The translations under genes and the position numbers were made by a program. Under the pieces are notes generated by a model. It was not told the origin of the DNA. It did no database searches and saw only the letters and a program-made list of their open reading frames with translations. From a virus, in the IMG/VR virus record IMGVR_UViG_3300048592_000505, positions 1 through 44,871 of that record: a stretch of DNA of 44,871 nucleotides; one strand, 5' to 3'. This document shows, one piece after another, positions 19,026 to 43,657 of this stretch. The number at the start of each line of letters is the position of its first letter. Position 1 is the first letter of the stretch.

Positions 19026-21134
19026 TCAACCCGCCTTCAATGCGTTGGTGACAATGAGCGACGGCGGGTTGGTCCGCGTGAAGCGAAGCCGCTTGCCAAC
19101 TTGGTTCGGTCCAAGACCCGCAAGCCAAGTCACCCCCTCGTCGAGCGAGTGCGTGAATTGCGAAGCGTGGGTCGTGGTGTTGTATTGTTCAACCGTGTTT
19201 CCGTCGTCATCAAATCCGAAATGCGTGAACGAACTCGGATAAGAAGCATAAAGCCGCGTTTGGCGATAAACGGTGTGACTCGGACTTGTTGCAGTCGTGC
19301 CCGTTGCAAGACCTTTCCAATAAGGGTCCATTTCAAAAAGCAAATCGTAACCGATGCCGATGTCTTCAAGCTGCGTCGGGACGCCCGACAAGAATGTCAA
19401 AAGGTCCCAAGTTATTTTTAATTGAACATATCGCAAAAGGTTGATTGTCGAAAGATCGGTTGCCGCGTCGACTTCAACCCAACCCCCGGTTTCGGAATTA
19501 AAAATCGCGTCCCCTTCAGTGTTTGCCGTTCGATAAAAAACACGAATGGTGTCGGTGAGTTCATAAAGCTTTTCAACCGTCGAAGCAAAGCGCGCTTTTG
19601 AAGGGCCGCCGAAATCTTGAACCGGCGTGATGAGATAAGAATAATTAAAGCTTTGGTCACTGCGAGCGTCCATGGCAAGAATTCCACGTTGACCGGCGGT
19701 GTTGATTGTCACGAAAATCCAACCGCTTTGAATTTCAAGACCCACGACCACGAAGCCGCGGAAGTAGTCGGCTTGTCGGCCGGTGTTTTCAAGCCACAAT
19801 CCAATTTGAGTTCCGAAGGCATGAGAAATTTGACTGTTAACAATGCTCTTCATAAAGAACCCGAAAGCGGCCGACGAATAAACAATCTTGTCGAGGGCTT
19901 CGGAATAACTTGCCGTGACGTTTGCTATGCCCGTGTAGTCGGTGCCCGTGCCGGAATTGTTCACGCCAATCGAGCCGACGAAAGATGTCACGCCGGCCGA
20001 AATTGCGGTGAGCGGTATGAAATAAAAGTTTGAAGTCGTCGGGAAGAACAAACACTTCACGCCGGCAACGCTGCCATGTCCGGGCGTTACAATCTTTTGA
20101 GCGTCGGTTAAAAGAGCGGTCCCGACGAAACCCGTTGTCACCGTTCCCGATTTTCTCGAAGCCAAATAAGCGGTCGTTGTTGTTCCAAAAGCGCGAGCAA
20201 AAACCGTGTTGGAAGTTGCCGAAGTCGCGTTGATTGAAGCACCGCCCGAAGTTGCCGAAAGCTCGAACGTGTTGGCCGTCGCGTTTCGCACAAAATAAAC
20301 GGTTTGAATGGCGTTCGCCAAAGTTGCCGTGAACCCGGTTGGCGCATTGGAAAGAATGACCACGGGGTCGTTGTTTGCGTAACCATGGGCGGTCATTTGA
20401 AAAGTTGGCGATGCGTTCACCGTGGCGCCCGTTGTTGTCTTTTGAACAATCGTCGGCGCAACCGCAGTGTCAAAGCCGTCGGTCGAAAGAGTCGCGGCCG
20501 AACCTTTCGTGGTGATAAGTTGTCCGGTTGCCGGGTCAAGGCCCGCGCCCATGAGTGTTGTCATCGCGTGAGCAACGCCAACCAAGGCCGGGTCTTGAAG
20601 CATATAAACGGCTTTCGCATCGTCGGCCACGCCCATATAAATTTGCGTTGGCGTTCCCATTTGAAAGTCTGCAAGATCAACTTTGTTGACGCGAAACACG
20701 CCGCCGTTGAGCACGGTTGTTGTCGCAACGGTGCCGATGAAAATTGTCCAACCCGTCGTCCCGTTATCAATCACCCGAATAAACCGCGCATTGTGAGCCG
20801 ATGTCCCTTGGTTGGGAAGAGTCACAAGCAAACGGCCAACCGGGGCATAAGCGCCGGTGACATAATTGAAAGTGTAAAGAGCGATTGAAACAACGCCGGA
20901 CGTGAAAGTCGCCATTATGAATTTGCGGCCATTGGCGGTTGCGTGTTCGGGCCCCCCGACACCTTGAGCACTTGCAAAGTCCGTGTTGATGTCTATGAAG
21001 CGCGTGAGCGCCGGCCCGTAAACCGTTGCCGCATCAATCGAGCGGCTTCGGACGTTTCCGAAAAGGTTGATTTTTGTTTTGTCATACGACGCGATTTGCG
21101 GCGTTTGATCTTTTAAAAAGTTTTGAAATCTCAT
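19026..21134 (-). CDS. Large probable virion protein, possible beta-propeller
   Basis: A 702-residue Gly/Thr/Ala-rich protein, nearly all beta-strand in outlook. The N-terminal MRFQNFLKDQTPQIASYDKT is followed by repeated blade-like segments such as VFRVNKVDLADFQ, YMGVADDAKAVYML and GWIFVTINTAGQRG. A middle insertion (about 235-300) resembles an immunoglobulin-like decoration domain (MTAHGYANNDPVVILSNAP). No catalytic motif was recognised. The start follows AGAGGGGCCGCACT. Its place after the lysis genes suggests a tail or capsid accessory. Confidence 0.65.
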   Translation of the reverse strand: MRFQNFLKDQTPQIASYDKTKINLFGNVRSRSIDAATVYGPALTRFIDINTDFASAQGVGGPEHATANGRKFIMATFTSGVVSIALYTFNYVTGAYAPVGRLLVTLPNQGTSAHNARFIRVIDNGTTGWTIFIGTVATTTVLNGGVFRVNKVDLADFQMGTPTQIYMGVADDAKAVYMLQDPALVGVAHAMTTLMGAGLDPATGQLITTKGSAATLSTDGFDTAVAPTIVQKTTTGATVNASPTFQMTAHGYANNDPVVILSNAPTGFTATLANAIQTVYFVRNATANTFELSATSGGASINATSATSNTVFARAFGTTTTAYLASRKSGTVTTGFVGTALLTDAQKIVTPGHGSVAGVKCLFFPTTSNFYFIPLTAISAGVTSFVGSIGVNNSGTGTDYTGIANVTASYSEALDKIVYSSAAFGFFMKSIVNSQISHAFGTQIGLWLENTGRQADYFRGFVVVGLEIQSGWIFVTINTAGQRGILAMDARSDQSFNYSYLITPVQDFGGPSKARFASTVEKLYELTDTIRVFYRTANTEGDAIFNSETGGWVEVDAATDLSTINLLRYVQLKITWDLLTFLSGVPTQLEDIGIGYDLLFEMDPYWKGLATGTTATSPSHTVYRQTRLYASYPSSFTHFGFDDDGNTVEQYNTTTHASQFTHSLDEGVTWLAGLGPNQVGKRLRFTRTNPPSLIVTNALKAG

Positions 21135-21148
21135 AGTGCGGCCCCTCT

Positions 21149-21586
21149 TTATTCGTTGTTATATCTTTCAATCGCTTGAATTGGATTGTTTAAAATTTCG
21201 TTCATTCGTTGCGGAGTGATGAGCCCTTGTTGGGCCAAGTAACCAACGCCCTGAATGGTGTCGATGCGTGCAAGATCAATGAAGGTTGCAACGGTCATGT
21301 TCCCCAAAAGAACTTCAACCATAGGGTCGGTTTTTGATGCCGTCAAAATGGCGATCAATTCGGGAATGGTGAACCGCTGCCGCATCGCAAGTTTTGTGAT
21401 GCGCTTTGTTTGTGGCGGCGGGTTTGTGATTGTTTTTCCGTCAAACTTTGCGCCGACGGCCGGAAGCGGGTCAAACCCCGCAAGATCAAACACCGCTTGA
21501 TAACGGCGGGCATAGTCTTCAATTTCGCTTTCTTCGATGTCGATAATATATTTCACTTCAAAATCTTGAATGAGTGCGACTTTCAT
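21149..21586 (-). CDS. Hypothetical protein before the large virion gene
   Basis: A 145-residue protein, MKVALIQDFEVKYIIDIEES at the start, then mixed alpha/beta with a helical C-terminus (NEILNNPIQAIERYNNE). AAAAGGGGCACAAGT precedes the ATG. The helical half (TIPELIAILTASKTDPMVEV, DTIQGVGYLAQQGLITPQRM) resembles small phage tail assembly or connector proteins, but no family is certain. Confidence 0.55.
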   Translation of the reverse strand: MKVALIQDFEVKYIIDIEESEIEDYARRYQAVFDLAGFDPLPAVGAKFDGKTITNPPPQTKRITKLAMRQRFTIPELIAILTASKTDPMVEVLLGNMTVATFIDLARIDTIQGVGYLAQQGLITPQRMNEILNNPIQAIERYNNE

Positions 21587-22086
21587 ACTTGTGCCCCTTT
21601 TAGTTCGCCGACTTGTGCCGCCGCGATCATTGAAATTTCGTTAAGCCTGCGCACCCAACCTTCACCGAACGCGGCAAAATTTCGGTTGTCAAAATAGCGA
21701 TTGAGTCTTGCGCGGGAATACTTTTGCACAAGCTTTTCGAGGTTTGCTTTTGCGATCGCGTTCAAAGTGTCGGGCCCCAAGTCCCCGTCGGCCTTAACCC
21801 CAAGGGCCGCTTGAAGCAAGGCGATAGAAACTTGAGGCCCTTGATTGACTGCGCAATCGAAAACGATAAGACGCAACGGACTCGGCAAAAGTTCAATTTT
21901 GCACTTTTCCCAAAAATCGCGTCGATAAATTTCAATGGCTTGGTCCTTTGTTAGATTTTTTATGTCGAGGTCAGGATAAAAGCGTTTGGCAATTCCAAAA
22001 TTTGTTTCACCGCCCGGGTCGCGGGGGTGCCAAACATAGCCGCCTTCGTGTTTTAAAATAATTTCGATCGCATCGGTGAATTTCAT
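21583..22086 (-). CDS. Endolysin, GH108 family
   Basis: A 167-residue glycoside hydrolase family 108 muramidase that cuts the glycan chain of peptidoglycan. The signature is at the start: IILKHEGGYVWHPRDPGGET then NFGI, with catalytic Glu14 in HEGG. The C-terminal half carries the peptidoglycan-binding-like segment ALGVKADGDLGPDTLNAIA. Its length is typical for the family. The ATG at 22086 has AAAGGTTAAG upstream. No signal peptide is visible, so release depends on a holin. Confidence 0.92.
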   Translation of the reverse strand: MKFTDAIEIILKHEGGYVWHPRDPGGETNFGIAKRFYPDLDIKNLTKDQAIEIYRRDFWEKCKIELLPSPLRLIVFDCAVNQGPQVSIALLQAALGVKADGDLGPDTLNAIAKANLEKLVQKYSRARLNRYFDNRNFAAFGEGWVRRLNEISMIAAAQVGELKGAQV

Positions 22087-22087
22087 C

Positions 22088-22702
22088 TTAACCTTTCTTG
22101 TCTCGCTTGAAGTCGCTCTCAAGTTTTTGAAGTTGGGTTTTGTGGGCTTTAAGGGCCTCACCGATTGAGCCGAACCATTGTTGGTGCTTATTAAGGTCAA
22201 TTGCGGTTTTGCCGACTCCCTCTTGCAACTTTGAAATTTGAGCGCCGTACGCATCCAAGGTTTTCTCAATCAAAATCACCCTTCCCAATTTTTCGTTGAG
22301 GTTTTGAATTGCAAGCTTCGACACTTCGTTTGCGAGCGTCATGTTGCGCTCGGTGTCCGTGCTCATGGCTTTTAAATTTAAAAGCTCTCGAAGCATTTCT
22401 TGTTTGAGTTCTAAAAGTTTTTCGCTCGTTTTTAAAAGCTCACCCGAAACGGCTTTGGTGAATTTGCCCATGTCGTCTTTGTGGGCTTCGAGCATTTTTT
22501 TATGAGTGTCAAATTGTGCGGCCGTGACTTGTTGGTGTTGGAACATTTGGCGATTTGAGTCGCCGGCGGTTTTCTTCAATTCAAAAACTTCGTCTTTGAA
22601 TTTTTTGAACAACTCTCTTGCAAGCCAACACGCGGCTAAAATGACAACAATGAGCGCCGCTTGAATTGGGTTTTTAAAGAGTTGGTCAAAAAGCCATTCC
22701 AC
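22088..22702 (-). CDS. Membrane-anchored coiled-coil protein (i-spanin candidate)
   Basis: A 204-residue protein. One transmembrane segment near the start (about 13-30, IQAALIVVILAACWLARELF) is followed by about 160 residues of charged, heptad-rich helix (FKDEVFELKKTAGDSNR, LLKTSEKLLELKQEMLRELL). This layout, N-terminal anchor and long periplasmic coiled coil, matches inner-membrane spanin subunits, although it is longer than classical Rz. Adjacent are a lipoprotein gene and the endolysin. It may instead be a tail or membrane scaffold. Confidence 0.6.
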   Translation of the reverse strand: MEWLFDQLFKNPIQAALIVVILAACWLARELFKKFKDEVFELKKTAGDSNRQMFQHQQVTAAQFDTHKKMLEAHKDDMGKFTKAVSGELLKTSEKLLELKQEMLRELLNLKAMSTDTERNMTLANEVSKLAIQNLNEKLGRVILIEKTLDAYGAQISKLQEGVGKTAIDLNKHQQWFGSIGEALKAHKTQLQKLESDFKRDKKG

Positions 22703-22905
22703 TATTTGTCACCCTTGCTTTCGCAGCGAATGAGCAACTCGCGCAATTTTTTCACGTCCTCTTTTGGCAAACACGCAAGCGGTTCCGAAAAAGGCGTGGG
22801 CTCATAAAATTCCCATTTGCCGTCGAATTTGGTTGGTTGCGGAGTGCTTGCACACCCCGCAAACAACATTGCACTAAGAATTGAAAATGCGCCTAAGAGC
22901 TTCAT
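22702..22905 (-). CDS. Small lipoprotein (o-spanin candidate)
   Basis: A 67-residue lipoprotein. The signal sequence MKLLGAFSILSAMLFAGCAS has a lipobox, LFAGC, so it should be lipidated at Cys18 and placed in a membrane, probably the outer one. The mature part is short (TPQPTKFDGKWEFYEPTPF). Its position next to a membrane-anchored coiled coil and the endolysin makes it a candidate outer-membrane spanin, the partner that completes lysis of Gram-negative cells. The ATG at 22905 follows GAGGACGGTGACA. It overlaps the upstream 59-residue gene. Confidence 0.72.
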   Translation of the reverse strand: MKLLGAFSILSAMLFAGCASTPQPTKFDGKWEFYEPTPFSEPLACLPKEDVKKLRELLIRCESKGDK

Positions 22906-23053
22906 TGTCACCGTCCTCGAACGCTTTGTTGATCGCGTCCAAGTCTTGAGCAACCTTTTTGTCCTCTTCCGCTTGGTCAATACGCGCTTGCATATTTTCC
23001 AAGAGCTTTAAGATTTTCGGCAGGTTCAAGATAAGGACGGCTAAAAGTTTCAT
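22874..23053 (-). CDS. 59-residue small protein of the lysis cassette
   Basis: A short gene overlapping both neighbours: its ATG shares ATGA with the holin-like stop and its 3' part overlaps the lipoprotein start by 32 bases. The sequence begins with a hydrophobic helix (MKLLAVLILNLPKILKLLEN) and continues in a charged helix ending (DQAEEDKKVAQDLDA, INKAFEDGDNEALRRIFNS). The hydrophobic N-terminal part suggests membrane association. In lysis cassettes such small proteins can act as holin regulators or additional holins, which is not shown here. Confidence 0.68.
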   Translation of the reverse strand: MKLLAVLILNLPKILKLLENMQARIDQAEEDKKVAQDLDAINKAFEDGDNEALRRIFNS

Positions 23054-23298
23054 GCGGCTTTGTCTTCCTTTTCTGCAACCGTGACGTGTTCACCGCCGCC
23101 GGCTTTTCGGTTCGGAAGACCGAGCAAATCAAAGAAACGTCGAATGACCTTGCCAACGCGTTCGACGGCAGTGTCATCCTTTTGTGTCGGCGTTAGTCGC
23201 ACGACGGTTTCGGCAACGGTCAAAAGACCCAAAGCTGCGCCTGCAACCGCGGGTCCGTTGACCATGAACCAAGAAACAAGAGCTTGAATTTGTTCCAT
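23050..23298 (-). CDS. Putative holin
   Basis: An 82-residue protein with one clear transmembrane segment (about 12-30, MVNGPAVAGAALGLLTVAET) followed by an amphipathic, charged tail (VVRLTPTQKDDTAVERVGKV). Size, topology and position at the head of a holin-small protein-lipoprotein-coiled-coil-endolysin cluster fit a class III-like holin. AAAGGGGAAAATAGTT precedes the ATG. A role as a membrane accessory cannot be excluded. Confidence 0.7.
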   Translation of the reverse strand: MEQIQALVSWFMVNGPAVAGAALGLLTVAETVVRLTPTQKDDTAVERVGKVIRRFFDLLGLPNRKAGGGEHVTVAEKEDKAA

Positions 23299-23386: not shown

Positions 23387-23983
23387 TCATTCAAGAGCCG
23401 CCAACATCGCCACAACTTTGTCGACCATGGGTTGCGGATACATGGAAGCGCCATGCGCTATGACAAGGTCTTTCGCCGTTTTGGGCGCGCCCGTCAAAAG
23501 CGCAAGCACAATGCCGACAAATGCAGAGTTAGAAAAAATCTGCCCCATTTGCTCGGGTGTTGCGTTTTCTTTGTTATATGCCGCAATGAAGTCGATGACT
23601 TTCAAACAACTTTGCCTTGTTGCGGAACGGTCTTCGACGGCGTGTTGCTCTTCGAGTTCGGCCGTGATGTCAACAATTTCAACGTCCCATTCGCGGGCAA
23701 AATGATAAAGCATTTGCATGACGGGTTGTTGACTCTCGTCAAGCACGGGTTGGCCTTGCTCATCGAGTTTTGGTTGATCGCTCACTTCGGAACTTGCCGC
23801 TTGCTCGGGCGCAAGCCCGTGCAAAGCAAGTTCACTTTCAAGATATGAAACATCGTGGTTGCGGCCATAAGTGCCGGGCCCCGTGATGCGCGCAACCCAA
23901 GCGTCGCCCTCTTCCATTGAAGCGAACGAGCCGACTTCAAGTTGCGAGTTGTCTGAATGTTTTTTTAAAATAAATTTCAACAT
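23387..23983 (-). CDS. Hypothetical protein after the fibre gene
   Basis: A 198-residue mixed alpha/beta protein, MLKFILKKHSDNSQLEVGSF at the start. Residues about 20-60 (SMEEGDAWVARITGPGTYGR) and a helical C-terminal half (TAKDLVIAHGASMYPQPMVD) are visible. Its position directly after the 785-residue fibre gene is where fibre assembly chaperones often lie, but the sequence does not show a known chaperone motif. AAAGGGGAAACT precedes the ATG. Confidence 0.5.
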   Translation of the reverse strand: MLKFILKKHSDNSQLEVGSFASMEEGDAWVARITGPGTYGRNHDVSYLESELALHGLAPEQAASSEVSDQPKLDEQGQPVLDESQQPVMQMLYHFAREWDVEIVDITAELEEQHAVEDRSATRQSCLKVIDFIAAYNKENATPEQMGQIFSNSAFVGIVLALLTGAPKTAKDLVIAHGASMYPQPMVDKVVAMLAALE

Positions 23984-23993
23984 AGTTTCCCCT

Positions 23994-26351
23994 TTATGGT
24001 TTTAAGCCTAAGCACATAAGCGCCAAGCTGTTATCTGCACCGGAAGCACCGAAGACATTAAAAGAAGTTGCGCCCGGCGTTCCCCCGAAAATTTGACAAC
24101 CTGCCGAAGTTGCGGCCGTTGAACAAGTGCAAGTGTATGCCCCCGAACCAAATGTCGTTGATGGAATGTTGACCGTATAATTGCCCGCAGAATTTCGAGT
24201 GACGGAAGTCACCCAGTTTCCGGGGTTGAAATGAAGAGTGCAAGGCGTGCTCGTGCAAGACGTGCCTCGCGAAGCCCCGCCAAATTCAAGAGCATATACT
24301 CGCGGGCTTGCCGCATTCGGTGTTGTCACTTGATCGCCCGTCAAAACCGGGCGAGCAATGTTTTGAAGCGCCGGACGAACCGTAAAGCGCCAATCCCTTT
24401 GCCCGATAGTCCCCGAGCGATCGGCGGTGAACGAACCGCTTCCGTTGGCTTCATACATAAGGCGAACGGTTCTTTTCGTGGTATTGGCAAAATAAAAAGT
24501 CGAACAAGACGACTGATTTGTTGTCGCCGCCCCCGCGGCACTATAGGTTTCAGGCGCGGCTTGTCCTGTTTGCAAATTTGTTTGTGCATTGTTTGGCGTT
24601 TCAATAAGACGCGAAATGACCGAAACCGTTGCCGCTGCCGTGTTGGCGCTGCCATACGCGCAAACATCGAACCAACCTGCATAAGGCGGCGTAAAGACCA
24701 CACCCATCGACTCGCTTCCGGCCGCGCAAGTCAAACCCGTTGAGGGGTTTGTTCCCGAGCACGGAACTTCGGCCGAGGCCGAGCCGGAATTCAACACCAT
24801 GTTCAAACCTGCGTCGGTTGCTTCAACATAGGTCGAATTTGTCGAAACGGCGACGTTGGCCCCGCCAAGGTTGGCATCAACAAACCAAGAGCTTTGCTCG
24901 TTGGTGACGGCCGTTTCACTCGTTGTCGGATAGTAAAGAATTTTTAAGTTGATGTCGTTTTGATCGGCGACGTTGTTGTAAAGAATGGTCGTGTTTCCAA
25001 AACCTCTTCCAACGATTGTCCAAGTGCGGCTTCCCGACGAACTATAAGAAAATTTTCCAATTATGGTTTGACCGTAAATTGCCGCTGCCGCATAGGGAAC
25101 ACTGATATGCCCTTGCGTGCTTGACCCGTCCGTGACCGCCAAGCCCCCTTGAGAGCCGGCATTCACCCCGGCCGCCAACGTGTAAAGCAAAACATAGTCG
25201 CCGGCCGGCATATTGTTACAAGTGACAACCGGCCCGTCCACGTCCGTCGTCAAACAAGTGCCGATTCTTTGGTCAATAATAGTTGGTCCCGGGCAAGCTG
25301 CCGCCGTTGCCGTTGCATAAGACCCGCCGCTTCCATATTGCAACAAACAACTTGCGGTCCCGACAAATTTGATTTCGGCCGCAAGACGCGCCTGCGCGAT
25401 TTGCGAAATGTTTTTGTTGCCGCCCAAATAAGCAAGGTCGCCTTGAATGGTTCCCGCACCCGTTGAAATCACCCGCGCCCGCATTGTGGCGCCCGGTGCA
25501 GGGCAAGGATAAGCAAGGGTTTGGCTCTTTTGCCAAGCCGTTGTGTTCGGCAAAACGATTTCAGAAAGGACGTTCGCGCTTGAGTCGAGGGCTTGAAGTT
25601 TGAAGTTGCCCGAGCCGCCAAAATACTTGAGGTCGGCCATGCAACCCGCACCAAGAGAGTCGGGAACGCTTTTCAAAGCCGTTTCAAAGTATTGGCCGGA
25701 ACCGGAAGCAACAAAGTTTGCATATTTGGCATCGCTCTCGGTGCCATTCGTGTATGTCCCTTGCGTGAAGGTGCCGCCCGTGTTTGACCAATCAATCGAA
25801 ACCCCGTCTTCAAACGAAGGGTTCGTCAAAAGGTTCACGCCGCCGTCGCCGCCCGAGCCCGTGCCGCTGCCGATCGCTTTATAAAGCGAGGCATCGTTTG
25901 AAAACTCAAGCTTTGAAGTCGTCGAGTTGTAACGGATTTCGGGGCTATTTGCGCCCTTGTTGAACTTCAAGACTTTGTTCGTGTCTGCGCCGTCACCGAC
26001 GGTCAAGTTGTTCCCGGTGTGATTGAACAAAGACAAATTGCCCGTGTCGATCGCACCCGTTGAAAAGTTATATTGGAAAAACGGACTTGAACCGCCTTTG
26101 TCGAAGGTGAAAGTTTTGTTGGCACTATTTGCGCCGTCACCCACGCTCAAGGCGTTGCCGTTATAACTAAGAGTGCCCGCTTGCGAGCCTTTCAGTTTTT
26201 TAGTCGAAGTCGGCCCCTTGAAAGTGATCGACTTATCACTCGAAGAGGTTGGCTTTCCAAGATCGACGTTATCGTCACCGATAGACGCCGCAAAAGCTTG
26301 GCTCGCAGTGAGTGCGAGAGCCGTTGCAAGAATTAAAAATTTATTTTTCAT
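23994..26351 (-). CDS. Tail fibre-like adhesin with Sec signal peptide and many cysteines
   Basis: A 785-residue fibre-like protein. The start MKNKFLILATALALTASQAF ends in a cleavable-type signal (AFA/AS), unusual for a virion protein. Residues about 40-165 are repeated shaft segments (GNALSVGDGANSANKTFTF, GNNLTVGDGADTNKVLKFNK). Next comes a beta-sandwich module (NLLTNPSFEDGVSIDWS), then C-terminal beta domains with about 18 cysteines (YTCTCSTAATSAGCQIF), suggesting disulfides formed outside the cytoplasm. Ribosome site GGAAAAGGGGAAAGAACA. It follows the adaptor gene at 26373-26972. It could be a tail fibre, or an exported adhesin like the Bdellovibrio trimeric fibre proteins. Confidence 0.78.
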   Translation of the reverse strand: MKNKFLILATALALTASQAFAASIGDDNVDLGKPTSSSDKSITFKGPTSTKKLKGSQAGTLSYNGNALSVGDGANSANKTFTFDKGGSSPFFQYNFSTGAIDTGNLSLFNHTGNNLTVGDGADTNKVLKFNKGANSPEIRYNSTTSKLEFSNDASLYKAIGSGTGSGGDGGVNLLTNPSFEDGVSIDWSNTGGTFTQGTYTNGTESDAKYANFVASGSGQYFETALKSVPDSLGAGCMADLKYFGGSGNFKLQALDSSANVLSEIVLPNTTAWQKSQTLAYPCPAPGATMRARVISTGAGTIQGDLAYLGGNKNISQIAQARLAAEIKFVGTASCLLQYGSGGSYATATAAACPGPTIIDQRIGTCLTTDVDGPVVTCNNMPAGDYVLLYTLAAGVNAGSQGGLAVTDGSSTQGHISVPYAAAAIYGQTIIGKFSYSSSGSRTWTIVGRGFGNTTILYNNVADQNDINLKILYYPTTSETAVTNEQSSWFVDANLGGANVAVSTNSTYVEATDAGLNMVLNSGSASAEVPCSGTNPSTGLTCAAGSESMGVVFTPPYAGWFDVCAYGSANTAAATVSVISRLIETPNNAQTNLQTGQAAPETYSAAGAATTNQSSCSTFYFANTTKRTVRLMYEANGSGSFTADRSGTIGQRDWRFTVRPALQNIARPVLTGDQVTTPNAASPRVYALEFGGASRGTSCTSTPCTLHFNPGNWVTSVTRNSAGNYTVNIPSTTFGSGAYTCTCSTAATSAGCQIFGGTPGATSFNVFGASGADNSLALMCLGLKP

Positions 26352-26372: not shown

Positions 26373-26972
26373 TTAGATCAAATTCAGTTTTAAATCGGTG
26401 AACTTCACGTTGCCGGTGTAACTTGCGCCGGCCATGTTGTCCGATTGATATTGCAGTTTCCAAGTCGTGCCCGAGACAAGCGTCATTGTGAAATCAACGC
26501 CGGCCGAGTCGTGCACGGTCACAAAAGATAAGTCCCAAGCGCCGTTTGCAAGTCCAAGTTCGGCGGCCGTGACCCATGTTCCGTAAAGTCTGCCCGTTTG
26601 CTTCACGAGCCCCGAGTCCGTTCGACGAACAATCGTCATCAAGACTTCAAAAGAGCGTGTCGTTGCGACGTTGATTTGCGGAAAGCCCGTCACGTCGGCA
26701 AGCGAAGCTTGGTTGTTTGCAATGTTGAAACTCAACGCCGAGGCTTGGCCGCCTTGTTGAATAAGTTTTTTAATTGCCGTCAATACTTGGTCCCCAGTTT
26801 CGTCGCCCGTCGGATTGAGCGTAATGCCCAAACCCTCAACCAAGTTGACAAGTTCTTTTTGAACGGCGTTCAACCAATAAGCTGAAACGACCGTTGCCGG
26901 CACCGAAAGCGAGGGGTTCCCCTCAGTAAACAAGTTGTCGACGGTTGCGCCGTCACTATCAATCTTTTGCAT
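26373..26972 (-). CDS. Tail fibre adaptor / proximal fibre protein
   Basis: A 199-residue protein. The start has the pattern of tail-fibre base proteins in Mu- and P2-like phages: DNLFTEGNPSLSVPATVVSA then YWLNAVQKELVNLVEGLGIT. The C-terminal half is beta-rich (TWKLQYQSDNMAGASYTGNV). It should join the baseplate to a distal receptor-binding fibre, the likely partner being the next gene downstream. GAACGGGGGAAACACAA precedes ATG. Confidence 0.78.
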   Translation of the reverse strand: MQKIDSDGATVDNLFTEGNPSLSVPATVVSAYWLNAVQKELVNLVEGLGITLNPTGDETGDQVLTAIKKLIQQGGQASALSFNIANNQASLADVTGFPQINVATTRSFEVLMTIVRRTDSGLVKQTGRLYGTWVTAAELGLANGAWDLSFVTVHDSAGVDFTMTLVSGTTWKLQYQSDNMAGASYTGNVKFTDLKLNLI

Positions 26973-41716: not shown

Positions 41717-43657
41717 TCACCAAAACGAAGACTCACGACGGACTCTTCGTGCCCCACGAGACGCGACGTTTTTTTCATTGACTTGTCGTGTTTCGTTATC
41801 AGTTTGTGAAGGTTCATTGACTTTTGCAACAACATTTTTTTCGGCGGGCGGGGTTTTGGGTTTCTTGAAACGGTCGAGCCCTGCCAATGACGCGGCGGCT
41901 CGTGCATAAATTCGGCAGTCAAGTGCTTCGTTTCGTTCACGCTCTTTCACCCATTCCGTGTGTGCAAAACCCCTTCGATTTTTTTTGATGAGCAATCTTT
42001 CCGCGGTGAGTTCTTTGAAATAGTCTTCGCCATATTCGGGGAAGTGACAAAAACCCGGCGGCGTTTCTTGCTCGGCTTCCGGCACAAGAAACTTGAGCCA
42101 AGAATACAGTTCGGATTTTAAAAGTGAAACACCAATTGCAAAAACTTTTATTCCCCGTCTAATGGTCTTGCCTGAAAGCTTCACGTCAACCGCCCGCGGT
42201 TGCCCGACCATGACACTCAAAGAGTCCATACCTTTGATCGGGATGACCCGCGTGATTGGATAGCGCCGGCAAAAGTTGTAAACGTGTTGTGTGTTATAAC
42301 CCGAATCGACCGCAACCATTTTCACCGGCATCGTGCCGCCGTCTTCGCGGGTGAACTCTTTGTCGATCACTTGCGCGAGCGCATTCCATGGCGAGTCGTT
42401 CACGCCAAAAGCAAGCGCGGTGTCCCCTAAACAAACACCCATGTCGACCGACCACGACTCGCGGTTGTTGCCCCAACCCACGACTTCAAAATGCAGTCGA
42501 TCTTTTTGAACGTCGACGCCCATGGTGAGAAATTGAACTTGTTTCGGCACGGTTCCGATTTCATATTTCTCGCGGCGTTGATATAGGTTTTTCCATTCCG
42601 GCGCGTCCCCAACTTCTTTATAAGTCTCACCTAAAATTGTGTTGTGAAACGCTTTTAGCTTTTCCGTTTTGCGGTATTTTTGAAACTCGTTGTCGGCCTC
42701 TTCTTTTGCGGCCGCAATTTCTTTCCAAGAAAACCAACCTATCGGCGAGTAAAGCGCGGACAAATGGAAACCGACGACCCCGCTTTCTGCGGTTGCCTGC
42801 CATTCGCCATCGGCGAACATTTTAGTTTTGAAGCGTTCTTCAATTCCGACCCCGCACCCGCCGGTTTCGCCGTCACAATAATAAAGAACCGACTCGGGTT
42901 TTCCGGGGGTCCATTGAAGGTTTTTAAATTCCAACTTTTGTTTGTGACCACAATGAGGGCAAGGGACGAAATAAAAACGCTTATCGCTGATTTCAAATTC
43001 GTCATCAATCTTTGATATTCCGTCAATCGTCGGCGTTGAGACAAGAAACGCTTTTCGACGTGAGAAAGTTCTAGACCGCGCAAGCACAAGCGACACCGGG
43101 TCGCCTTGTCCCTCAACGTCCAAAGGGAACTCGTCAAGTTCGTCGAGCATGACAAATCGGGCGGGCATTGACTTCAACCCGGCCGCGGAATTCGCCCCGG
43201 CCAACGCCAATGTCCCGCCCGGAAAATCTTTGAGCAAAATTGTTGTCGAAGAGTCTCGGGACTTTTTTGCCCGGACCTTTTCGTTGAGCCGCGGACACTC
43301 TTCAATCAATGGTTCAATCCGTTGCCGCGAAACTTTTCGCGCAAGATCAACGGTTGGAAGCACGAGCATGAAAGGCCCCGGCGCATAGTCCATGACATAG
43401 CCGAGCCAATTGTTGCCGCTTTCCGTTCCCCCAACCTGCGAACCTTTTTTGAACACAACTTTTTGTGCCGGGTGAAAGATCGAAAGACAGTCCATGATTT
43501 CTTTTAAATACGGCGTGCGGCTTGTGCGCCACGGGCCGGCTTCGCTTGACGCTTTCTTGGAAAGAACGCGGTGTTGGTCGGCCCATTCGCTCACTGATAA
43601 AATTGGGTCGGGTTTTAAAACTTCGGCGGCAAACCTGTTAAGCAACGACGCGTGCAT
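41717..43657 (-). CDS. Terminase large subunit (GpA family)
   Basis: A 646-residue packaging motor of the lambda GpA type. ATPase part: a Walker A-like VVFKKGSQVGGTESGNN (about residue 67), Walker B ARFVMLDELDEFP. A zinc motif CPHCGH ... CDGETGGCG follows. Nuclease part: GVDVQKDRLHFEV and AVDSGYNTQHVYNF acid residues. It cuts cos and drives DNA into the head. The ATG overlaps the TerS gene by 20 bases with AAGGTTACTGA before it. Confidence 0.95.
   Translation of the reverse strand: MHASLLNRFAAEVLKPDPILSVSEWADQHRVLSKKASSEAGPWRTSRTPYLKEIMDCLSIFHPAQKVVFKKGSQVGGTESGNNWLGYVMDYAPGPFMLVLPTVDLARKVSRQRIEPLIEECPRLNEKVRAKKSRDSSTTILLKDFPGGTLALAGANSAAGLKSMPARFVMLDELDEFPLDVEGQGDPVSLVLARSRTFSRRKAFLVSTPTIDGISKIDDEFEISDKRFYFVPCPHCGHKQKLEFKNLQWTPGKPESVLYYCDGETGGCGVGIEERFKTKMFADGEWQATAESGVVGFHLSALYSPIGWFSWKEIAAAKEEADNEFQKYRKTEKLKAFHNTILGETYKEVGDAPEWKNLYQRREKYEIGTVPKQVQFLTMGVDVQKDRLHFEVVGWGNNRESWSVDMGVCLGDTALAFGVNDSPWNALAQVIDKEFTREDGGTMPVKMVAVDSGYNTQHVYNFCRRYPITRVIPIKGMDSLSVMVGQPRAVDVKLSGKTIRRGIKVFAIGVSLLKSELYSWLKFLVPEAEQETPPGFCHFPEYGEDYFKELTAERLLIKKNRRGFAHTEWVKERERNEALDCRIYARAAASLAGLDRFKKPKTPPAEKNVVAKVNEPSQTDNETRQVNEKNVASRGARRVRRESSFW

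Follow-up and report, generated by a model that had tools for sequence, protein, structure and literature searches.

The usual view of tailed phages is that their fibres, like other virion proteins, are folded and put together in the cytoplasm; those of T4 assemble there. In T4, a separate baseplate protein, the long-tail-fibre connector gp9, holds a fibre; in Mu/P2-like phages such as Bordetella phage PBb001, adaptor and fibre body form one protein, which has no signal peptide. Exported phage proteins are also known, for example Llp of T5, a small lipoprotein that acts in phage exclusion, and no precedent for exported tail fibres was found in the literature searched. Among bacteria, Bdellovibrio bacteriovorus encodes the MAT fibres, which carry signals, are surface displayed and have a conserved beta-rich N-terminal domain of ~130 aa after the signal (PMC10769870); one of them, Bd2734, has a TNF-like tip that may bind sugars (PDB 8OKW; PMC10769870).

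In this study, we analyzed an IMG/VR record in its entirety (the window, 44,871 bp). It belongs to a Mu-tailed myophage: the head and tail genes, among them those for sheath, tape measure, baseplate J and gp48, are Mu-like, and a replication block encodes DNA polymerase, helicase and primase. No integrase was matched among the window genes scanned. The nearest cultured tails are those of Bordetella phages (sheath 51%, J 46%). The large terminase subunit (41717-43657, minus strand, as are all window features below) had its best matches in Wolbachia phage WO and in Rhodobacter phages (~48-50%), which, set against the Bordetella-like tail, indicates a mosaic genome.

The late genes of interest are arranged in the order adaptor, exported protein, 198-aa gene and lysis genes. 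The adaptor (26373-26972, 199 aa) consists of an N-terminal baseplate part and a C-terminal domain (~residues 78-199), here called class B and proposed to act as a socket (PHROG tail-fibre matches; alignments A6 and A8). Its operon slot is that of the Mu/P2-like fibres, and its N-terminus is homologous to theirs (51% over 71 aa); whereas in the Bordetella phages this N-terminus is fused to the fibre body, in the window it belongs to a separate gene, and the distal part is exported with predicted disulfides. Like T4 gp9, the adaptor is a separate protein that would hold a fibre, and its structure model gave weak matches to gp9 (E 1.8e-3, too weak for homology) and to tailspikes. The 198-aa gene that directly follows the fibre (23387-23983) has no signal and a close homologue in locus L145. 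Further downstream are a short one-TM protein and possible holin (23050-23298; homologues in L146 and L059), a lipoprotein that is probably an outer-membrane spanin (22702-22980; signal and lipobox after an internal Met, MKLLGAFSILSAMLFAGCAS; homologue in L146), an N-terminal TM and coiled-coil protein that may be the inner-membrane spanin (22088-22702), and a GH108 endolysin (21583-22269; Pfam E 1.7e-26). Beyond the lysis genes, a 702-aa late protein (19026-21134) had only a weak PHROG match; relatives have other fibre-like genes at the same place, and it may be another receptor-binding protein.

A first-pass annotation had described a 785-residue fibre-like protein with a Sec signal, shaft repeats and about 18 distal cysteines, lying just after a fibre adaptor. 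The ORF (23994-26351) starts with an ATG at 26351, preceded by the purine-rich leader aaggggaaagaaca, and the PHROG profiles confirmed the upstream gene as the adaptor. The N-terminus, MKNKFLILATALALTASQAFA followed by ASIG, is of the Sec/SPase I type: the n-region is positive, the hydrophobic stretch is uncharged, an A-X-A site is present, and the predicted cut falls between TASQAFA and ASIG (residues 1-21, 26289-26351). The heuristic predictor used for all signal calls in this work gave it a score of 5.72, among the highest of the 423 six-frame window ORFs of at least 40 aa, and no other long late gene of the window has a convincing SPase I signal; the same scan called no lipobox after the signal of the 785-aa protein, so the Llp-type lipoprotein feature is absent. 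The protein resembles T5 Llp as a phage-encoded exported product that could affect adsorption, and differs from it as a large late fibre. The signal prediction called for in the first-pass annotation was therefore positive, and the signal is kept across the family (see below). Distal cysteine richness also held, although the number is 16: all lie in the mature part (residues 237-780), with none before 237, and cysteine content was 2.04% compared with 0.58% in other late genes (binomial p = 2e-5).

Family alignment (A4) and a monomer model (all beta, mean pLDDT 69) divide the mature protein into several parts. First, the shaft (residues 22-168, 25848-26288) begins with the conserved mature N-terminal segment ASIGDDNVDLGKPTSSSDKSITF, the proposed adaptor dock, and contains the expected shaft-like repeats at residues 22-165. 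Second, a CBM-like beta-sandwich (residues 171-315, 25407-25841) carries the pair C237/C283 and matched carbohydrate-binding modules with Z 13-14 in VIA-align, whose list was dominated by this region and little probed the other domains. Third, a TNF/C1q-like domain (residues 322-474, 24930-25388) matched the tip of Bd2734 (Z 17.6, rmsd 2.2, 144 aligned); the family profile found the same chain by sequence (E 9.1e-20), and C335/C353 align with cysteines of that tip. The last two parts, defined by the family alignment and its cysteine columns, are the most conserved cysteine core (residues 480-665, 24357-24914), with C531/C542 and C564/C616, and a C-terminal domain (residues 680-785, 23997-24314) with C741/C780.

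Relatives of the protein were not easily reached. In Pfam, in PHROGs and among 50,697 phage records (tblastn), no relative was detectable with the 785-aa sequence or its consensus, a single-sequence search of the PDB gave no match, and both 8-mer scans of viral and genome contigs and a scan with a guessed C-terminal motif returned nothing. The first relatives were reached only via baseplate J loci and a scan with the motif ETPNNAQT. Homologues were then found in diverse uncultured phages: Mu-like myophages and contigs that resemble, by their neighbouring genes, other myophages, siphophages, a podophage and two large T4-like phages. In each case, the gene shares the strand of the last tail or adaptor gene and comes immediately after it, with the lysis genes usually close behind. 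In genome contigs, the motif had one true match (L122/L143), the only family member in the genome collection, on a large phage-like contig binned with an alphaproteobacterial (Emcibacteraceae) MAG, which may point to the host or reflect a binning error. The family profile had no match in 189 other Alphaproteobacteria genomes, in 397 other Pseudomonadota genomes, or, in a search that had no positive control, in 148 genomes of the phylum of a Deltaproteobacteria MAG.

The signal and the cysteines were then compared across the family. All 31 complete core members scored for a signal, compared with 2.9% of 1,147 other genes of the same loci under the same heuristic, and a good part of the control genes that scored encode real exported proteins of the phages; the signals of L145 and L143 are seen only with a downstream start codon. 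Most family members have the n-h-c layout with A-X-A-like sites. The mature cysteine count was even in 30 of the 31 core members (p 1.5e-8 if independent; the members are related, but their counts span 2 to 20) and in 54% of 173 control cysteine-rich proteins. In a 16-member alignment, C237/C283 were present together in 11 members and both absent in 5, C564/C616 and C741/C780 were each lost as a pair, and C531/C542 were invariant. Even counts and paired loss form a disulfide pattern and therefore point to an oxidising compartment. Thus, the export and disulfides proposed in the first-pass annotation gained family-wide support. Export with disulfides is as firmly established as sequence evidence allows, and the fibre protein is almost certainly finished outside the cytoplasm.

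Two further observations concern exported neighbours. In 10 of 16 class B loci (L147, L149, L150, L152-L157 and L159), the gene directly after the fibre encodes a second exported protein (139-258 aa, with a signal and 4-10 cysteines, even in number), at the position where a fibre-assembly chaperone would be expected; a member of the same family in L146 has no signal. L141 (4024-6211, minus strand) has a tandem of fibre genes (380 and 347 aa), each with a signal; they match different parts of the family, which gives the impression of a single fibre divided into two exported halves.

To examine the fibre independently of its own sequence, viral contigs were queried with the window-type adaptor. 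Seventeen loci matched the whole adaptor including the C-terminal domain (the proteins of L147 and L148 are identical, and L149, L152 and L165 were already known before the scan), and in all 17 a signal-bearing ORF of 337-825 aa lay within 50 nt downstream. Each of these ORFs has a mature start like A(K)ITDDxLxIGKPGSSADK and an even number of cysteines. On the other hand, 27 loci matched the N-terminal part only, and none of the 23 with a testable next ORF, whose adaptors are fused to other fibre bodies, had a signal there (Fisher p ~4e-11 on nearly the same counts, 15/15 vs 0/24, for groups that may differ in host). One locus from the baseplate J set, L059, has a similar adaptor, yet its next fibre is signal-less and cysteine-poor; we dropped the idea that this fibre has the N-terminal segment of class B, as the HMM match was not significant.

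A second adaptor C-terminal domain, class A, is common to T4-like, siphophage-like and podophage-like contigs. A scan with this domain gave 54 testable loci, of which about 49 had a signal-bearing fibre (45 by score and four by eye: L198, L215, L239 and L246), and the cysteine count was even in 34 of 38 complete signal-bearing fibres. Signal-less class A homologues were L193, L199 and L203 (L205 is a near-identical copy); in L199 and L203, the protein starts where the mature form of signal-bearing homologues does, and the DNA upstream encodes no signal. The signal-less L203 (MSITNRDKAELGVEQNFLINGGGES) and the signal-bearing L223 (cut after TQA, then AITDRDKAELGVERNYVTNGGCES) are 39.6% identical over 680 positions, with two and four cysteines, respectively, at no shared positions, and the tree requires the signal to have been gained or lost at least twice.

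An HMM of the class B N-terminus matched 17/17 class B and 3/3 class C fibres and 0/48 class A fibres. One family HMM matched tips of both classes (16/17 class B and 41/54 class A). Because tips are common to both classes and the N-terminal HMM is class-specific, the HMM matches indicate that tips move between classes, and that the mature N-terminus goes with the adaptor C-terminal domain. Physical docking would explain this coupling and the separate adaptor gene better than simple linkage, which could also produce it. The proteins have the hallmarks of fibres, namely the fibre slot of the tail operon, a conserved N-terminus, a shaft and a variable tip.

Based on these observations, we propose, with a probability of about 0.5, that the 785-aa protein forms the distal half of a tail fibre made in two parts, that it folds in the periplasm and that it docks onto the adaptor of the virion when the cell lyses; the components visible at the sequence level, which we could demonstrate, are the signal, the cysteine pairing, the operon slot, the adaptor coupling and the domain homologies. 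The adaptor would be made in the cytoplasm and sit on the baseplate, and the fibre would be exported via Sec, cut by signal peptidase I, and would trimerise and form its disulfides in the periplasm. At lysis, released virions would pick up the fibre through contact of its mature N-terminus with the adaptor C-terminal domain. Surface glycans would be the ligands of the CBM-like and TNF-like domains. Because signal-less homologues fill the same slot next to the same adaptor domain, the exported form may well still be a virion fibre, with a cysteine-rich tip that would need the periplasm to fold. Among the options raised in the first-pass annotation (an exported adhesin, a periplasmic fibre recovered at lysis, and a decoy or exclusion factor), the second fits best, as slot, adaptor domain and mature N-terminus are the same with or without a signal. 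Against the two-part fibre, the coupling of adaptor and fibre could be mere linkage of neighbouring genes, L059 combines a similar adaptor with a signal-less fibre, and L018 has a signal but no cysteine.

The main rival, which we consider less likely, is that the protein is an exported decoy derived from a tail fibre, a late mask on host receptors in the periplasm or at the surface that spares progeny from debris and excludes other phages. Its export, its binding-type domains and its position beside the lysis genes would all suit such a role. In addition, relatives encode further fibre-like proteins without a signal on the far side of the lysis block, and the 785-aa protein therefore need not be the receptor-binding protein. 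However, a decoy leaves unexplained why the mature N-terminus matches the adaptor class, why signal-less homologues occupy the same slot, and why a split-off adaptor is found only in front of an exported fibre.

The homology to Bd2734 raises the possibility of a phage-borne host adhesin on the cell surface, such as a prey-binding fibre of a predatory host. MAT proteins are likewise exported fibre-like proteins with swappable tips, signal peptides and surface display (PMC10769870), and the TNF/C1q-like domain of the window protein is homologous to the tip of one of them, with aligned cysteines. The resemblance to Bdellovibrio fibres suggested earlier was thus upheld for this one domain (E 9e-20). 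On the other hand, MATs are encoded by the bacterium, whereas the window gene lies in a phage tail/lysis operon, is coupled to a virion adaptor and places phage-type shaft repeats first; as judged from sequence, the homology is that of a shared domain and not membership in the MAT family. With no anchor seen in the protein, and with the family located in late operons of lytic-looking phages whose host is about to die, a host adhesin appears improbable. Similarly improbable is a periplasmic protein that reuses fibre domains to assist in lysis or in the release of virions, for instance by acting on the outer membrane or wall: the gene lies just before the holin-like, spanin-like and endolysin genes and is often adjoined by the second exported protein, but no catalytic domain was found, and the tips vary as receptor-binding tips do while the N-terminus is conserved. 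Finally, that the hydrophobic N-terminus is a structural piece of an ordinary fibre assembled, like virion proteins in general, in the cytoplasm is highly improbable given the n-h-c layout with A-X-A-like sites in most members, the even and paired cysteines and the same-slot homologues that lack the segment. Its identity as a structural adaptor was likewise rejected, the adaptor being a separate gene and some homologues having no such segment.

As a tentative generalization of the two-part fibre, many uncultured tailed phages may build their fibres in two compartments, with a cytoplasmic adaptor and a disulfide-bonded periplasmic distal part, sometimes helped by a second exported protein; the two parts would meet only at lysis. 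If true, tailed phages would have a new route of fibre assembly, and a widespread, exported and disulfide-bonded fibre family tied to virion adaptors would change the picture of purely cytoplasmic assembly. It would also explain the use of cysteine-rich C1q/TNF-like and CBM-like tips by phages, and would provide a natural system of separable, periplasm-folded binding tips. Moreover, the domain shared with a Bdellovibrio adhesin makes traffic of fibre tips between phages and predatory bacteria a testable idea.
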